A DNA stretch of 64,000 nucleotides from an uncultured Flavobacteriaceae bacterium (lineage in GTDB: Bacteria; Bacteroidota; Bacteroidia; Flavobacteriales; Flavobacteriaceae). The position numbers and the translations under genes were made by a program. The notes under the pieces were generated by a model. The model worked only from the letters and a program-made list of their open reading frames with translations. It did not search any database and was not told where the DNA came from. Positions within the stretch are counted from its first letter, which is position 1, and each line of letters begins with the position of its first letter. The stretch spans positions 1 through 64,000 of the forward strand of contig CAJIZF010000006.1 of the NCBI GenBank assembly GCA_905181835.1, given 5' to 3'. This document shows positions 6,018 to 56,185 of the stretch, piece after piece.

Positions 6018-7235
6018 ATTTTACCTTCTATAAAAATAAAACCAAATCGGCTAGCTGTTAAACTTACAGCTGTTGGTGAACGAAACGTAAAAAACGGGCA
6101 TCCCTGGATTTTCACGAATAGTATCCAAAAAATTAATAAAGAATGCTCCTCAGGAGATATCGCAATCATATTTGGTCGCGATAAAAATAATGTTATTGGT
6201 GTTGGACTGTATGATTCTATGTCCCCAATTTGTATTAAAATGTTACATCACGGTGGGGGAGTACTACTTGACTCTAATTTTTTTTTAAATAAAGTAAACG
6301 AAGCTTATAAATTACGTATCCCTTTATTAAAAACAAATACAAATAGTTATCGTTTTTTATTTGGAGAAAATGATGGCTTTCCAGGTTTAATAGCTGATGT
6401 TTATCACAAAGTGATAGTGGTTAAATTATATTCAAGTATTTGGTTTCCGTATTTAAAAATAATAACGGAGCATTTACTAACTGTAAGTGATACAAAGACT
6501 GCTGTATTGCGTTTAAGTCGCTCACTTCAGCAATTAAAAGATCGTTACAATACCGAGGATGGACAGGTTATTTACGGAACATTAACTGATGCTACTATTC
6601 CTTTTATTGAACATGGTATCCACTTTTCAGCAAATGTAATTAAAGGTCATAAAACTGGATATTTTTTAGATCATCGAGAAAACCGGAAACAGGTTGGCCT
6701 ATTATCTAAAAATAAGACGGTGTTAGATGTTTTTTCGTATGCTGGTGGATTTTCGGTCCATGCCTTAGCTAATCAAGCAAAAGAAGTAACTAGTATTGAC
6801 ATTAGTAAACAAGCGTTAACATTGGCGGTTCAAAATGGAAAGCTGAATGATTTTACAGGAAATCATACAACTTTAGCTGGTGATGCTTTTAAAATTTTAC
6901 AAAATTTCATTTCAAAAAAAAGAACCTTTGATGTTGTAATTATTGATCCTCCATCTTTTGCAAAAAATAAAAATGAAATCGAAATTGCTAAAAAAAAATA
7001 TAAAGAATTAGCATTATTAGGAGCTAGCTTAATATCAAAAAATGGATTGTTGGTCTTGGCATCTTGTTCTTCCAGAGTTTTAGCAAGTGAATTTTTAGCC
7101 ATCAACAAAGAAGCTCTAGACACAGTTCCTCGTAATTATGTTTTAGTAAAAACCACTCAGCATGACATAGATCATCCAATTAATTTTAAGGAAGGAGCCT
7201 ACTTAAAGACTGGATATTACCGTTTTTTAGACTAG
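6018..7235 (+). CDS. rlmI: 23S rRNA m5C1962 methyltransferase, RlmI family, with non-canonical start
   Basis: RlmI methylates C1962 of 23S rRNA using SAM. The frame is open from 6009, just before the end of the E1 gene. The first 67 codons before the first ATG (6219) encode a PUA domain with RLAVKLTAVGERN and NGHPWIFTNSI, which is standard for this family. None of those codons is ATG, GTG or TTG. The ATT at 6018, one base after the upstream TAA, gives a protein of 405 residues, close to family length. Catalytic domain: DHRENR (218-223), SAM motif DVFSYAGGFS (237-246), and IIDPPSF. The 3' end overlaps the convergent MFS gene by 4 bp. The ATT start is inferred. Confidence 0.85.
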   Translation: MLPSIKIKPNRLAVKLTAVGERNVKNGHPWIFTNSIQKINKECSSGDIAIIFGRDKNNVIGVGLYDSMSPICIKMLHHGGGVLLDSNFFLNKVNEAYKLRIPLLKTNTNSYRFLFGENDGFPGLIADVYHKVIVVKLYSSIWFPYLKIITEHLLTVSDTKTAVLRLSRSLQQLKDRYNTEDGQVIYGTLTDATIPFIEHGIHFSANVIKGHKTGYFLDHRENRKQVGLLSKNKTVLDVFSYAGGFSVHALANQAKEVTSIDISKQALTLAVQNGKLNDFTGNHTTLAGDAFKILQNFISKKRTFDVVIIDPPSFAKNKNEIEIAKKKYKELALLGASLISKNGLLVLASCSSRVLASEFLAINKEALDTVPRNYVLVKTTQHDIDHPINFKEGAYLKTGYYRFLD

Positions 7236-8434
7236 TTTTTTTGAGATACCTTTATTGTTAGCATCGATACAATAAGTATAGATAGAAAAGAACAAATTGA
7301 AAATCCAATAAATATAGGAAGTACGGTAATCGTAACAAATTTTCCAATAAAAACACTTATTGGAACTGCCATTAGCGTTGAAATAAAGCCAGTAATAGCC
7401 GCTCCAATTCCTGCGATATGACCAACAGGCTCCATTGCAATAGCTCGTAAATTACCAAACAGAAACCCTAAACAGAAAAATTGAAGTGAAAAAAATAATA
7501 GAATAACTTTAATTGGTGGATTCACTGAATTAAAAAATAAAACAGTGTAGCAGATAGATATGATAAAAAAACCAATAAGGGAAACATGGATCATTTTTTT
7601 CATACCATATTTTACTACAAAAATACCATTTAATAAAATCGCGCCTCCTGAAGCAGTTGCAAGCCCAGCAAATATATATGGAAAGGCTTCTTTTAAACCA
7701 TATTGTTCTTGAAATATTTGTTGAGAAGTACTCAAATAAACCATAAACGACCCCGTAATAAAACCCGAAATTAATGTGTAAGCAATAGTTGTTTTGTAGC
7801 GTATTAATTCTAAAAATCCTTGAGAAAATAAGTTAATTTTAAAAGCAATACGATTTTTGTGAATTAAAGTCTCTTCTTGACGTTTCCAAAACCAAAAAGC
7901 AATAAGTAGACAAAATATGATCTGAAAAATAAAAATAGCTTCCCAATTAAAATAATTTAATATAAACTTACCTATTGCTGGTGCAATGATTGGAACTAAT
8001 AAAAAAATAACTATTACGAAGGACATTATTTTTGCCATATAATCACCTGAATATAAATCTCTAATAATAGCTACACTGATAGTACGAGGAGCAGAGAGAC
8101 CAAAACCTTGTAGAATTCGACCTAAGACCATTATTTCTAATGAATTGGAATAAACACATATAAAACTGGCTAAAATAAAGATACCAAAGCCCACAAAAAC
8201 CATTGGCTTTCGACCTAAGCTATCCGACAAAGGACCAAAAATCAGAGGACCAACACCCAAGCCAATGAAAATCATTGTTATGAGTAATTGATGATCAGAG
8301 TTTTCTTGTGTATTCAAAGAGTTGCCAATAATATCAAGAGCCGGTAATAATGCGTCAATAGCAAGAGCTACCACAGACATTAAAAAAGCCATTAAGGCTA
8401 TAAATTCAAATTTGGTAACTTTTGATGTTTTCAT
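7232..8434 (-). CDS. MFS multidrug efflux transporter (Bcr/CflA type)
   Basis: A 400-residue, twelve-helix major facilitator of the inner membrane, in the drug:H+ antiporter DHA1/Bcr-CflA group. The signature between helices 2 and 3 reads GPLIFGPLSDSLGRKPMV, and helix 4-5 has RILQGFGLSAPRTISVAIIRD, both typical of Bcr/CflA. The substrates cannot be predicted. Its 3' end overlaps that of rlmI. A -7 element lies only 5 bases before the ATG, suggesting a near-leaderless transcript. Confidence 0.88.
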   Translation of the reverse strand: MKTSKVTKFEFIALMAFLMSVVALAIDALLPALDIIGNSLNTQENSDHQLLITMIFIGLGVGPLIFGPLSDSLGRKPMVFVGFGIFILASFICVYSNSLEIMVLGRILQGFGLSAPRTISVAIIRDLYSGDYMAKIMSFVIVIFLLVPIIAPAIGKFILNYFNWEAIFIFQIIFCLLIAFWFWKRQEETLIHKNRIAFKINLFSQGFLELIRYKTTIAYTLISGFITGSFMVYLSTSQQIFQEQYGLKEAFPYIFAGLATASGGAILLNGIFVVKYGMKKMIHVSLIGFFIISICYTVLFFNSVNPPIKVILLFFSLQFFCLGFLFGNLRAIAMEPVGHIAGIGAAITGFISTLMAVPISVFIGKFVTITVLPIFIGFSICSFLSILIVSMLTIKVSQKN

Positions 8435-23844: not shown

Positions 23845-24603
23845 ATGAAATCTGTTGTCTTATTTGGTGCTGGAAATGTAGCTACACATTTGTGTAAAGC
23901 TATTCACGATTCGAATAGTTTTGAAGTTATTCAAGTTTATAGTAAAACCAAACAAACACTTGATAATTTTAGTTTTAATATCGACAAAACCAACGATTTA
24001 AATACTATAAAAAAAGCGTCAATTTATATTATTGCTATACCTGATGATGCTATCATGGATTTTTCCAAAAAAATACCCTTTAAAAATAGACTTGTTGTTC
24101 ATACTTCAGGATCTGTTCGAATGGAAAAACTTTCGGAAAACAATCGAAAAGGAGTATTTTATCCATTGCAAACATTTACTTCAAATGCGAAGGTTAATTT
24201 TTCAGAAATACCTATTTGTATCGAAACTTTTCATCAAGAAGATTTAATATTATTACAAGAACTAGGAAATTCAATATCAAACAATGTGCAAATAGTAACT
24301 TCAACTCAAAGAGAACATATCCACTTGAGCGCAGTTATCGTTAACAATTTTGTAAATCATTTATATCTAATTGGTCAAGATTTATTAGTGAATCAATCTT
24401 TAACTTTTGATATTTTAAAACCTTTAATTTTTGAAACTGCTACTAAAATAAAGAATATAAGTCCTCATAAGACTCAAACAGGACCAGCTAAAAGGAATGA
24501 CTTAAAAACAATAGAAAAACAATTACATTTGTTGAAAGATAGTCCTTACCAAGAACTATATAAAAATATTACAAATTCAATTTTAGAAAAATACAAACAT
24601 TAA
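23845..24603 (+). CDS. Rossmann-like DUF2520 protein
   Basis: A 252-residue protein with an N-terminal NAD(P)-binding motif, FGAGNVATHL (7-16), typical of the 6-phosphogluconate dehydrogenase-like superfamily. The C-terminal half is the helical DUF2520 domain (REHIHLSAVIVNNFVNHLY and GPAKRNDLKTIEKQL). The substrate is unknown. It is the first gene of a tight run with the KdsC-like phosphatase, UbiA-like protein and Maf. A possible promoter element TATATTCG lies 4 bases before the ATG. Confidence 0.88.
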   Translation: MKSVVLFGAGNVATHLCKAIHDSNSFEVIQVYSKTKQTLDNFSFNIDKTNDLNTIKKASIYIIAIPDDAIMDFSKKIPFKNRLVVHTSGSVRMEKLSENNRKGVFYPLQTFTSNAKVNFSEIPICIETFHQEDLILLQELGNSISNNVQIVTSTQREHIHLSAVIVNNFVNHLYLIGQDLLVNQSLTFDILKPLIFETATKIKNISPHKTQTGPAKRNDLKTIEKQLHLLKDSPYQELYKNITNSILEKYKH

Positions 24604-24604
24604 T

Positions 24605-25132
24605 ATGAGCTATAAAGAATACTTGAACAACATTACAACTCTGATTTTTGACGTGGATGGTGTTTTGACTGACGGAACCATTTTAGTTGCAACCAATGGG
24701 GATATGTTTAGAAAGATGCACACAAAAGATGGCTATGTGCTCAAACATGCAGTAGATTGTGGTTACCATATCTGTATTATATCTGGTGGAAATAATGAGG
24801 GAGTCCGCAAGCGATTAAATGGTTTAGGTATTGAAGATGTTTATTTAGGAGTTCATCATAAAATAAAAACTTTGGAAACATATTTACAAAAAAAAGGTTT
24901 AAAAATGAAAGAGGTTATGTACATGGGGGACGATATTCCAGACTTAGAGATTATGCAAAAAGTAGGGCTGGCCTGTTGCCCTCAGGACGCTGTCCAAGAA
25001 ATAAAAAAAACTTCTCATTATGTTTCCCATAAAAAAGGAGGTAAAGGTTGTGTTCGAGATGTTGTTGAACAAATATTAAAAGTTCAAAACAATTGGTTAA
25101 ACAAAGACAAAATAAGTGCTCAATACGATTAA
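24605..25132 (+). CDS. KdsC-like HAD phosphatase (Kdo-8-phosphate phosphatase family)
   Basis: A 175-residue C0-type HAD hydrolase. Motif I DVDGVLTDG is at 16-24 (nucleophile Asp16), motif II SGG at 60-62, and motif IV GDDIPD at 108-113. These match KdsC/YrbI, which releases phosphate from Kdo-8-P for LPS synthesis. Other Kdo genes are absent here, so the exact substrate is not certain. It starts 1 bp after the previous stop and its end overlaps the next ORF by 17 bp. Confidence 0.9.
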   Translation: MSYKEYLNNITTLIFDVDGVLTDGTILVATNGDMFRKMHTKDGYVLKHAVDCGYHICIISGGNNEGVRKRLNGLGIEDVYLGVHHKIKTLETYLQKKGLKMKEVMYMGDDIPDLEIMQKVGLACCPQDAVQEIKKTSHYVSHKKGGKGCVRDVVEQILKVQNNWLNKDKISAQYD

Positions 25133-26042
25133 TTTTTTTTCCTTGAGTTATATAAATTCAATTCATTACAAAAAGTTAATATTTATAGTTTTTATTCAAT
25201 ATCTTTTGCGTTTTGCACTCTGTATTCCTTTGGGGGCAAATTTAATGCTAAATAATTTTTATTTTAATATTTTGGTAATTGCAACTACTTGTATAGCTGC
25301 AGGCGGATTGATAATTAATCAATCTTATACTGTTTCAACAATTAGAAATCAACTTGAAAACCAAGTTGTTGATAAAAGAATTACTAAGAAAAACGCTTAT
25401 TGTTTATTTGTTATTTTAAACGTATTGGGAGTTGGTATTGGATTTATCATCACCAATCACGTCGAGCAACCTGACCTTTTTGGTTTTTTTATAGTTTTTT
25501 CTGCGCTGTTTTATCTTTATGCTTCGTTCATAAGTAACATTCCGATATTTAATAATATTTTAATTTCAATACTAGCAATTTTTCCATTATTAATTGTTGG
25601 AATAATTGACTTACTTCCTGCTATTACATCCATCAATCAATCGCTCCAAACTTTTGTGTTTAGCATAATTTTAAATTATTCTTTTTTTCTATTTTTTGTT
25701 TGTTTAATTCGGGCGTTGGTTCATGACATTGTTTTTATTGATGAAAACAAAAAAGGAAACAGAAACACCCTATCGATATGGATAGGAATAAAAAGAACTT
25801 CATATATTATTTTTTTTTTAGTGATGGTGTTTTTATTTGCAATCATTTATTACAACTATACAGTTTTGTATAAAAATACTGTCGCAGTTATCTATTCCTT
25901 ATTTTTTGTTTTGGCCCCTCTTCTTCTTTTATCTGTGAAAGTTTGGGAATCTTCAAATAAAATTGATTTTAAATTTCCTCTAAAATTACTGGATTTTGTT
26001 CTTTTTTTTAGTGTTTGTTCTTTATTTTTATTTCTACTTTAA
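25116..26042 (+). CDS. UbiA-superfamily prenyltransferase-like protein lacking the first Asp motif
   Basis: A 308-residue, about eight-helix membrane protein that aligns by eye with the flavobacterial UbiA family often annotated as geranylgeranylglycerol-phosphate geranylgeranyltransferase. In that family the first metal-diphosphate motif reads NDxxDxxxD. Here residues 68-76 read NQSYTVSTI, with all the acidic residues gone. Only Asp204 (LVHDI) recalls the second motif. It is probably a degenerate or repurposed member. The start is GTG 25116 or TTG 25143. It lies between KdsC-like and Maf genes, as usual for the family. Confidence 0.75.
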   Translation: MLNTINFFSLSYINSIHYKKLIFIVFIQYLLRFALCIPLGANLMLNNFYFNILVIATTCIAAGGLIINQSYTVSTIRNQLENQVVDKRITKKNAYCLFVILNVLGVGIGFIITNHVEQPDLFGFFIVFSALFYLYASFISNIPIFNNILISILAIFPLLIVGIIDLLPAITSINQSLQTFVFSIILNYSFFLFFVCLIRALVHDIVFIDENKKGNRNTLSIWIGIKRTSYIIFFLVMVFLFAIIYYNYTVLYKNTVAVIYSLFFVLAPLLLLSVKVWESSNKIDFKFPLKLLDFVLFFSVCSLFLFLL

Positions 26043-26061: not shown

Positions 26062-26640
26062 ATGCTCTCAAATAAACTTTCTAATTATCAAATTATTTTA
26101 GCTTCGGGCTCTCCAAGAAGACAACGCTTTTTTAAAGAATTAGATATCGATTTTGTAATTAAAGTAAAATCAATAAATGAGGTCTATCCCTCTAATTTAA
26201 AAAAATCAGAAATTACTGATTACTTATCGAAGTTGAAGGCGTCCGCATTTAAAAATATTTCCGAAAATGAAATTGTAATTACTAGTGATACTATTGTTTG
26301 GTTTGATGGAAAGGCGATTGAAAAACCAAGAAATAAAAAAGAGGCATTTAAAATGATTCGTTCCTTTAGCAATGGGATGCACACAGTTTTCACTTCGGTA
26401 ACTTTTACAGGAAAAAATTTCCAAAAAACTATAAATGATTCAACTAAAGTATGGTTCAATAAACTAACTGATGAAGAAATTAATTATTATATAGATACAT
26501 ATCAACCGTTTGATAAAGCTGGCGCTTACGGGATTCAAGAATGGCTTGGTTATATAGGGATTAATAAAATTGAAGGATCATTTTTTAATGTTATGGGCTT
26601 GCCAACTCATAAAGTTTATCAAACCCTACTAACTATTTAA
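26062..26640 (+). CDS. maf: Maf-family nucleoside triphosphate pyrophosphatase
   Basis: A 192-residue Maf protein, which hydrolyses non-canonical or pyrimidine NTPs to NMPs. The motif ASGSPRRQRF is at 14-23, TSDTIV and EKPRNKKEAF are further along, and FDKAGAYGIQE is the family's C-terminal signature. The ATG at 26062 is chosen because the earlier in-frame start at 25996 would add a hydrophobic, non-family N-terminus inside the UbiA-like gene. The start codon lies 20 bases after the upstream stop. Confidence 0.93.
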   Translation: MLSNKLSNYQIILASGSPRRQRFFKELDIDFVIKVKSINEVYPSNLKKSEITDYLSKLKASAFKNISENEIVITSDTIVWFDGKAIEKPRNKKEAFKMIRSFSNGMHTVFTSVTFTGKNFQKTINDSTKVWFNKLTDEEINYYIDTYQPFDKAGAYGIQEWLGYIGINKIEGSFFNVMGLPTHKVYQTLLTI

Positions 26641-55864: not shown

Positions 55865-56185
55865 ATGAAAAGATCAGCAATCGAGTTTAACAAATTGATG
55901 TCTCAAAATGAAATCATAGCTTCAGTACGACAATTTATGGATGAAGATGAAAGATTAAAGGAACGAAAGGATTGGAGTAATTTGAAACTATTCAACCATT
56001 TAAACGATTCTATTGTCATTTATAAAAAATTAAAAAAAGAATTAGGCGATTTGGATAAAACTAGCAATGAGCTTACTAATTTAACAAGAGAAAAACAAGT
56101 GATTGAATGTGACTATTACATTGCTTTATGCGAAGAAGAATTGCAAGATTTCATGAATAAAACAAAAACTTTAAAAATGTGTTAA
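55865..56185 (+). CDS. 106-residue helical ORF, islet protein 3
   Basis: A highly charged, coiled-coil-like protein. KRSAIEFNKLMSQNEIIASV is followed by a long helix (DEDERLKERKDWSNLKLFNHL), then a second helix rich in Lys and Glu, with cysteines near the end (VIECDYYIALCEEEL). No signal peptide or domain is recognised. It ends the three-ORF run and is followed by a weak terminator. Confidence 0.55.
   Translation: MKRSAIEFNKLMSQNEIIASVRQFMDEDERLKERKDWSNLKLFNHLNDSIVIYKKLKKELGDLDKTSNELTNLTREKQVIECDYYIALCEEELQDFMNKTKTLKMC

Follow-up and report, generated by a model that had tools for sequence, protein, structure and literature searches.

A UbiA-family gene of an uncultured Flavobacteriaceae bacterium encodes a protein whose first Asp-rich motif and a number of further active-site residues have been replaced by substitution, and its reading frame has stayed open and under purifying selection after the motif was lost; the same kind of loss is found in other lineages of the family, where it accompanies the absence of PcrB, the GGGP synthase. 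The reading preferred here, with a probability of roughly two in three, is that UbiA has repeatedly become a pseudoenzyme, retained for a putative role outside catalysis, which may lie in lipid binding.

The gene lies in a stretch of 64,000 nt (the window; assembly GCA_905181835.1, contig CAJIZF010000006.1, positions 1 to 64,000 of the forward strand), where the gene order is DUF2520, KdsC-like, UbiA, Maf:

23845–24603, + strand: DUF2520 Rossmann-like gene, first in the gene row (family search)
24605–25132, + strand: KdsC-like HAD phosphatase gene, upstream of UbiA (TIGR01670, 138 bits)
25143–26042, + strand: UbiA-family gene, DGGGP-synthase-like and motif-less; 299 codons from TTG (308 from the GTG at 25116)
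26062–26640, + strand: Maf-like gene (putative name), downstream of UbiA

The product of the last gene is taken by us, as by the first-pass annotation, to be Maf. The placement between KdsC-like and Maf genes that the first-pass annotation had described is thus the one seen in the window, and its claim of a UbiA-family protein with an intact ORF holds as well: the frame 25116–26042 (+), 308 codons when counted from GTG, contains no internal stop, and the protein matches PF01040 with 45 bits in a profile search, above the curated cut-off of 34.2. TTG at 25143 is probably the true start, judging from 28 listed rows, 25 of which have TTG (12) or ATG (13) at this site. Against NCBIfam NF009512 the protein scores 240.7 bits, under the equivalog cut-off of 278; by tree placement and the identical gene row, it is nevertheless assigned as an ortholog of the flavobacterial “geranylgeranylglycerol-phosphate geranylgeranyltransferase” (DGGGP-synthase-like), the UbiA of the window's clade being sister to the G014 and G006 orthologs with a support of 92 and 82 in two trees. 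Its hydropathy correlates with the canonical mean at 0.90, and an AlphaFold model, made from an input of two rows (the window protein and L074), has nine helices at a mean pLDDT of 46.9, too poor for the model to bear on the fold. The genome from which the window derives (G000) has four other UbiA matches, one of them below the cut-off. The DUF2520 gene at 23845–24603 is also fast-evolving, with an omega of 0.259 between G000 and its relative G018.

Three sites in the gene mark the loss of catalytic residues:

25317–25343, + strand: first Asp-rich motif, where NQSYTVSTI replaces NDIYDVEID (alignment to close relatives)
25533–25535, + strand: Ser replacing a conserved Lys (K132) that is present in 97.5% of 197 PcrB-positive rows
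25722–25748, + strand: second Asp-rich motif, where HDIVFIDEN replaces KDIEDVDGD, with one of three catalytic Asp kept

That NDxxDxxxD reads NQSYTVSTI, as first annotated, is borne out by the alignment, in which the window residues stand in frame with NDIYDVEID of the relatives and one codon is missing just downstream; because of this in-frame correspondence, the motif must have been replaced by substitutions rather than by displacement or frameshift. An intact motif at a displaced position was looked for in the alignment and did not turn up, there being no acidic cluster in the aligned frame that takes its place. Likewise, a pair of frameshifts as the cause of the loss was rejected by in-frame codon comparison. 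The statement that a single Asp (204 in the numbering of the first annotation) is left of the second motif is correct for the three catalytic Asp, Asp209 being at a less conserved column. The losses go further than the first motif, which the first-pass annotation had missed: gone are R8, N11, D60, D63, D67, K132, E192, K195, D199, D203, and others. Among the 48 columns at least 90% conserved in 197 rows from PcrB-positive genomes, 28 are kept in the window protein, 27 in G018, and 29 in G016, while two PcrB-less proteins that keep the motif hold 45 (G006) and 48 (G122). Retention in the window protein is 3/13 for charged and 25/35 for uncharged conserved columns (Fisher p 0.0037, for a split chosen after the table had been seen). 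For the DGGGP synthase of Methanocaldococcus jannaschii, whose positions were matched to the flavobacterial columns by alignment, Ala at D66, D70, D180, D183, or D187 is described to lower activity strongly; in mutants of motifs 1 and 3, GGPP binding was almost normal and GGGP binding weaker (PMC9385802).

Within the genus of the window, the motif is likewise missing from G018, whose protein is 88% identical, and from G016 (62%), and it is kept in all 14 of the remaining congeners whose motif region could be read (the region is cut off in G001, and G010 has no match; both are outside this count). Since two relatives share the loss while the others keep the motif, neither chance nor sequencing error accounts for it. 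Of the refuting case that the first-pass annotation had named second, close relatives that share the loss and are active, one half applies: two relatives share the loss. It is true that the genomes of this clade are all drafts (G000 has 8 contigs and is 90.4% complete, G016 has 110 contigs and is 80% complete) and that reading frames of other G018 genes are broken, as would be expected if an assembly error, a contamination, or a frameshift mimicked a motif loss. Such an artefact is very improbable, as the reading frame and the gene row are the same in three genomes, which differ from the canonical sequence by substitutions, not shifts. Several genes of the G018 MAG (L107–L109, L339) are broken into shorter frames than those of the window; the MAG looks error-prone, and therefore its dN may be too high throughout.

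The three genomes have a second feature in common, one the first-pass annotation had not connected with the motif loss it correctly saw: in a profile search, PcrB (PF01884) had no match in G000, G016, and G018, nor in G001, G006, and G010, and 13 of the 19 genomes of the genus had one. Four of the PcrB-positive congeners carry pcrB with a PPTase-like gene on one side and pnuC on the other (both named by sequence look). In G000 the PPTase-like gene directly adjoins pnuC, that is, the pcrB site is closed; in G018 it also abuts pnuC, though it is split into two frames. About 100 bases separate the two genes in G006 and G001. For G016, a matching pnuC was not found in the 80% complete genome, so that its lack of pcrB is taken from the profile search. 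In three other PcrB-negative genomes, G279, G344, and G122, a frame of 90–98 codons (L337, L338, L342) occupies the pcrB site between the PPTase-like gene and pnuC. For G1P dehydrogenase (PF13685), the genus of the window yielded only weak matches, which say little.

Family-wide, the presence of one gene is tied to that of the other. Of 299 Flavobacteriaceae genomes, all at least 90% complete, and with an NF009512 match at E 1e-45 or better (a cut of our choosing) counted as UbiA ortholog, 188 have both genes and 99 have neither; UbiA alone is found in 7 and PcrB alone in 5 (Fisher p 1e-63, a value inflated by kinship). N[D/N]xxDxxxD is kept in 187/187 readable UbiAs from PcrB-positive genomes, the 188th (G151) being cut off by a contig end; four of them (G128, G297, G154, G312) have NNxxDxxxD instead of NDxxDxxxD, and the second motif is short of one Asp in 2/185 counted. 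Among the seven PcrB-negative holders of UbiA, the motif is lost in five, from four lineages: G000, G166 (first motif HAIESVDID), G193 and G339, which belong to one genus, and G279, where the loss is milder (NAIYDTETD, with KDIHNINGN as second motif) and a search of the genus brought up no genomes beyond the two already known. That the loss occurs in other lineages had escaped the first-pass annotation. The other two of the seven, G006 and G122, are PcrB-negative yet keep the motif. The near-perfect joint presence, together with active-site decay seen only where PcrB is gone, is genetic evidence of one shared pathway. The five genomes with PcrB and without an NF009512 UbiA ortholog (G155, G184, G219, G242, G313) are 1.6–2.2 Mb in size.

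On a quick tree of 72 UbiA proteins, made with the motif columns included and with G166 on a very long branch, four changes of the motif label are needed, and the starred branches force four; the window's clade is there sister to G014, which is PcrB-positive, plus G006. A single clade of all degenerate rows was rejected (AU p 0.007), and a single origin for the window's clade and g172, the genus of G193 and G339, was not (AU p 0.105). The cases of motif loss fall in four genera, two of which (g1, g74) also hold PcrB-positive congeners that keep the motif. Six independent PcrB contrasts are available, with motif loss in four, no difference in two, and the reverse in none; the sign test gives p 0.125, the minimum reachable with four.

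Selection in the window's clade was estimated with a codon model of our own on a 17-row tree, leaving out the stem branch of the clade, for which omega was saturated (branch length at bound). Omega is 0.19 in the clade versus 0.058 in the background; fixing the clade value at 1 is rejected (2dlnL 104.9), and giving the clade the background value worsens the fit by 2dlnL 37.9. For the G000 and G018 tips, omega is 0.395, and omega = 1 is rejected there (2dlnL 9.7) as well as for the rest of the clade (104.8). Comparing dN/dS between relatives that share the loss had been proposed with the first annotation; both pairwise values are below 1, namely 0.370 for G000 and G018 (LR 10.7; top of 43 genes, median 0.080) and 0.107 for G000 and G016 (LR 105.8; third highest of 12 genes, at a saturated dS of 2.3). 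Constraint in the clade is clearly relaxed, yet not neutral. The suggestion that selection may keep the ORF for another function gains from the omega of 0.19 and the rejection of omega = 1, but it loses from the relaxation, because of which a slow decay is a live rival.

According to that alternative, UbiA is on its way to a pseudogene after the loss of pcrB, and the open frame is a leftover or is held by translational coupling to Maf. The closest pair's omega of 0.370, a value that no other of the 43 genes reaches, and that of 0.395 for the tips are what would be expected, and so is the absence of the UbiA ortholog from 99 of the 106 PcrB-negative genomes and from 10/52 genomes of g172. G006, PcrB-negative with the motif kept, has already lost R8 (a Gly at a position invariant in 197 PcrB-positive rows), and its omega against G014, 0.197, is the highest among the genes compared for that pair. 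A gene in neutral decay should, however, have acquired stops: the expectation is 6.6 stop-making substitutions for the pair of G000 and G018 and about 105 for that of G000 and G016 (the latter from a saturated dS), and none is seen; the UbiA genes of all three clade members are free of stops and frameshifts, and the omega of 0.19, instead of about 1, is also unlike that of a pseudogene. Translational coupling to Maf would prevent stops, not amino-acid changes, and omega = 1 is rejected for the tips as it is for the remainder of the clade. As the slow decay also leaves g172 unexplained, it is considered unlikely, though it is the strongest of the alternatives.

Two other parts of the window stood out in the comparison of G000 and G018. 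The adjacent SAM methyltransferase and MFS transporter genes at 6219–8434 have a dS of 1.26 and 0.85 and form a locally diverged block, which perhaps arose by allelic replacement; a 106-aa frame without Pfam match at 55865–56185 has a dS of 0.79. For the other 40 genes compared, dS is 0.04–0.35.

Genus g172 was sampled with 52 genomes, of which 0/52 had a PcrB match in the profile search. At a cut of E 1e-40, the UbiA ortholog is present in 42/52 (40/46 good ones) and missing from 10/52 (6/46 good ones), and is therefore dispensable in this genus. All 42 orthologs retain at most one of the four motif-1 residues, and all 42 are without a stop within the matched stretch. Maf directly follows UbiA in 32/32 flanked loci; KdsC was not found upstream of UbiA in these loci. 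As the one-ratio omega of 0.027 (21/32 rows) is saturated, close pairs were used: in 14 pairs, which involve 10 genomes of two clusters and are hence not independent, omega is 0.034–0.131 for UbiA versus 0.039–0.135 for Maf in the same pairs. Since it is constrained like its neighbor Maf, the g172 UbiA presumably does something.

What it does could be catalysis of a changed kind, if another metal site or a chemistry independent of the first Asp motif were used. In the first 32 rows, g172 keeps Lys132 and Arg191 (32/32 each) and K195, Asp196, and Asp203 (31/32 each), and a new DHN is conserved in its UbiA, as might be found in such an enzyme. Arg191 is, however, lost in 3 of 10 further g172 rows, the low scorers G343, G353, and G390, and the window's clade has lost R8, N11, K132, E192, K195, and D199 as well; there, G000 and G016 are 47% identical at the altered invariant positions versus 61% elsewhere, a comparison biased by the picking of columns for change. 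A changed enzyme is thus given little credence, less than a slow decay.

The preferred reading, a pseudoenzyme kept for something other than catalysis, would imply the following course of events. The ancestor would have been a DGGGP-synthase-like UbiA prenyltransferase acting downstream of PcrB/GGGP synthase. Loss of pcrB in the ancestor of the three species G000, G016, and G018 would have removed the presumed substrate of UbiA, and the orphaned protein may then have lost the residues that hold the Mg-diphosphate as well as those for the acceptor's polar head, so that prenyl diphosphates could no longer be ionised. What would have been kept is the membrane scaffold, for a catalysis-independent role, be it the binding of isoprenoids or other lipids or a membrane partnership with another protein. 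The same course may have been taken in other Flavobacteriaceae and would have become fixed in one genus. A non-catalytic role in lipid binding or as a scaffold is the simplest account that the analysis offers; lipid binding as the putative role of the window protein is a guess. Observed are the motif loss, the absence of pcrB with its site closed, the joint occurrence of the two genes, and the purifying selection that followed motif loss; the order of events, the loss of activity, and the second role with its nature are inferred. Several findings speak against this reading: the relaxed constraint in the window's clade, the motif kept by the PcrB-negative G006 and G122, the lack of UbiA in 10/52 g172 genomes and of Arg191 in three g172 rows, the AU test that leaves a single origin of the window's clade and g172 unrejected, and the sign test with its p of 0.125. 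A wider version, tentative and somewhat less probable than its opposite, is that flavobacterial UbiAs, apart from making DGGGP, have a second and older role that does not depend on catalysis (sensing of isoprenoids, or a membrane scaffold with Maf), for which alone UbiA would be kept in some of the lineages shedding the ether-lipid pathway through pcrB loss, giving rise to recurrent, selected pseudoenzymes.

Homologs of GGGPS and DGGGPS are known in Bacteroidetes, and GGGP synthases are active in vitro (PMC7852524, PMC6431249); according to the latter source, it is unclear whether the two are active in those Bacteroidetes that lack G1P dehydrogenase. The joint presence of UbiA and PcrB bears on this open role of archaeal-type lipid genes. 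In the open-licence literature searched, no report of a motif-less UbiA or of a link to PcrB loss was found. The naturally occurring motif-dead forms of this integral membrane enzyme, among them a set under strong selection in g172, provide test material for a second role of UbiA.

Among proteins of known structure, the M. jannaschii DGGGPS (6M31; E 1.8e-22 with a profile of 10 canonical rows) is the best match to the flavobacterial family, and its motif positions are the same as in canonical flavobacterial members. In contrast, the window protein is without the partners of D66 and D70, has only D180 of D180/D183/D187, and no longer carries the middle-motif Lys; moreover, the window genome has no GGGP synthase match. 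To the NF009512 proteins the window UbiA is, by sequence and gene neighborhood, orthologous, and it departs from them in that all 187 readable PcrB-positive members carry the first motif, whereas the window's clade and g172 do not. These proteins presumably correspond to the flavobacterial group G3, a group named by clustering (PMC9235831), the two being equated by name, not by sequence. Ubi-297, of group G2 and the ebo cluster, represents another flavobacterial UbiA branch, active on quinolines; it is placed in another group than G3 by the same source. UBIAD1 of animals, likened here by description and not by sequence, is an active prenyltransferase, unlike what is proposed for the window protein; because this UbiA protein in addition binds HMG-CoA reductase and controls it (PMC4374513), it sets a precedent for a non-catalytic role.
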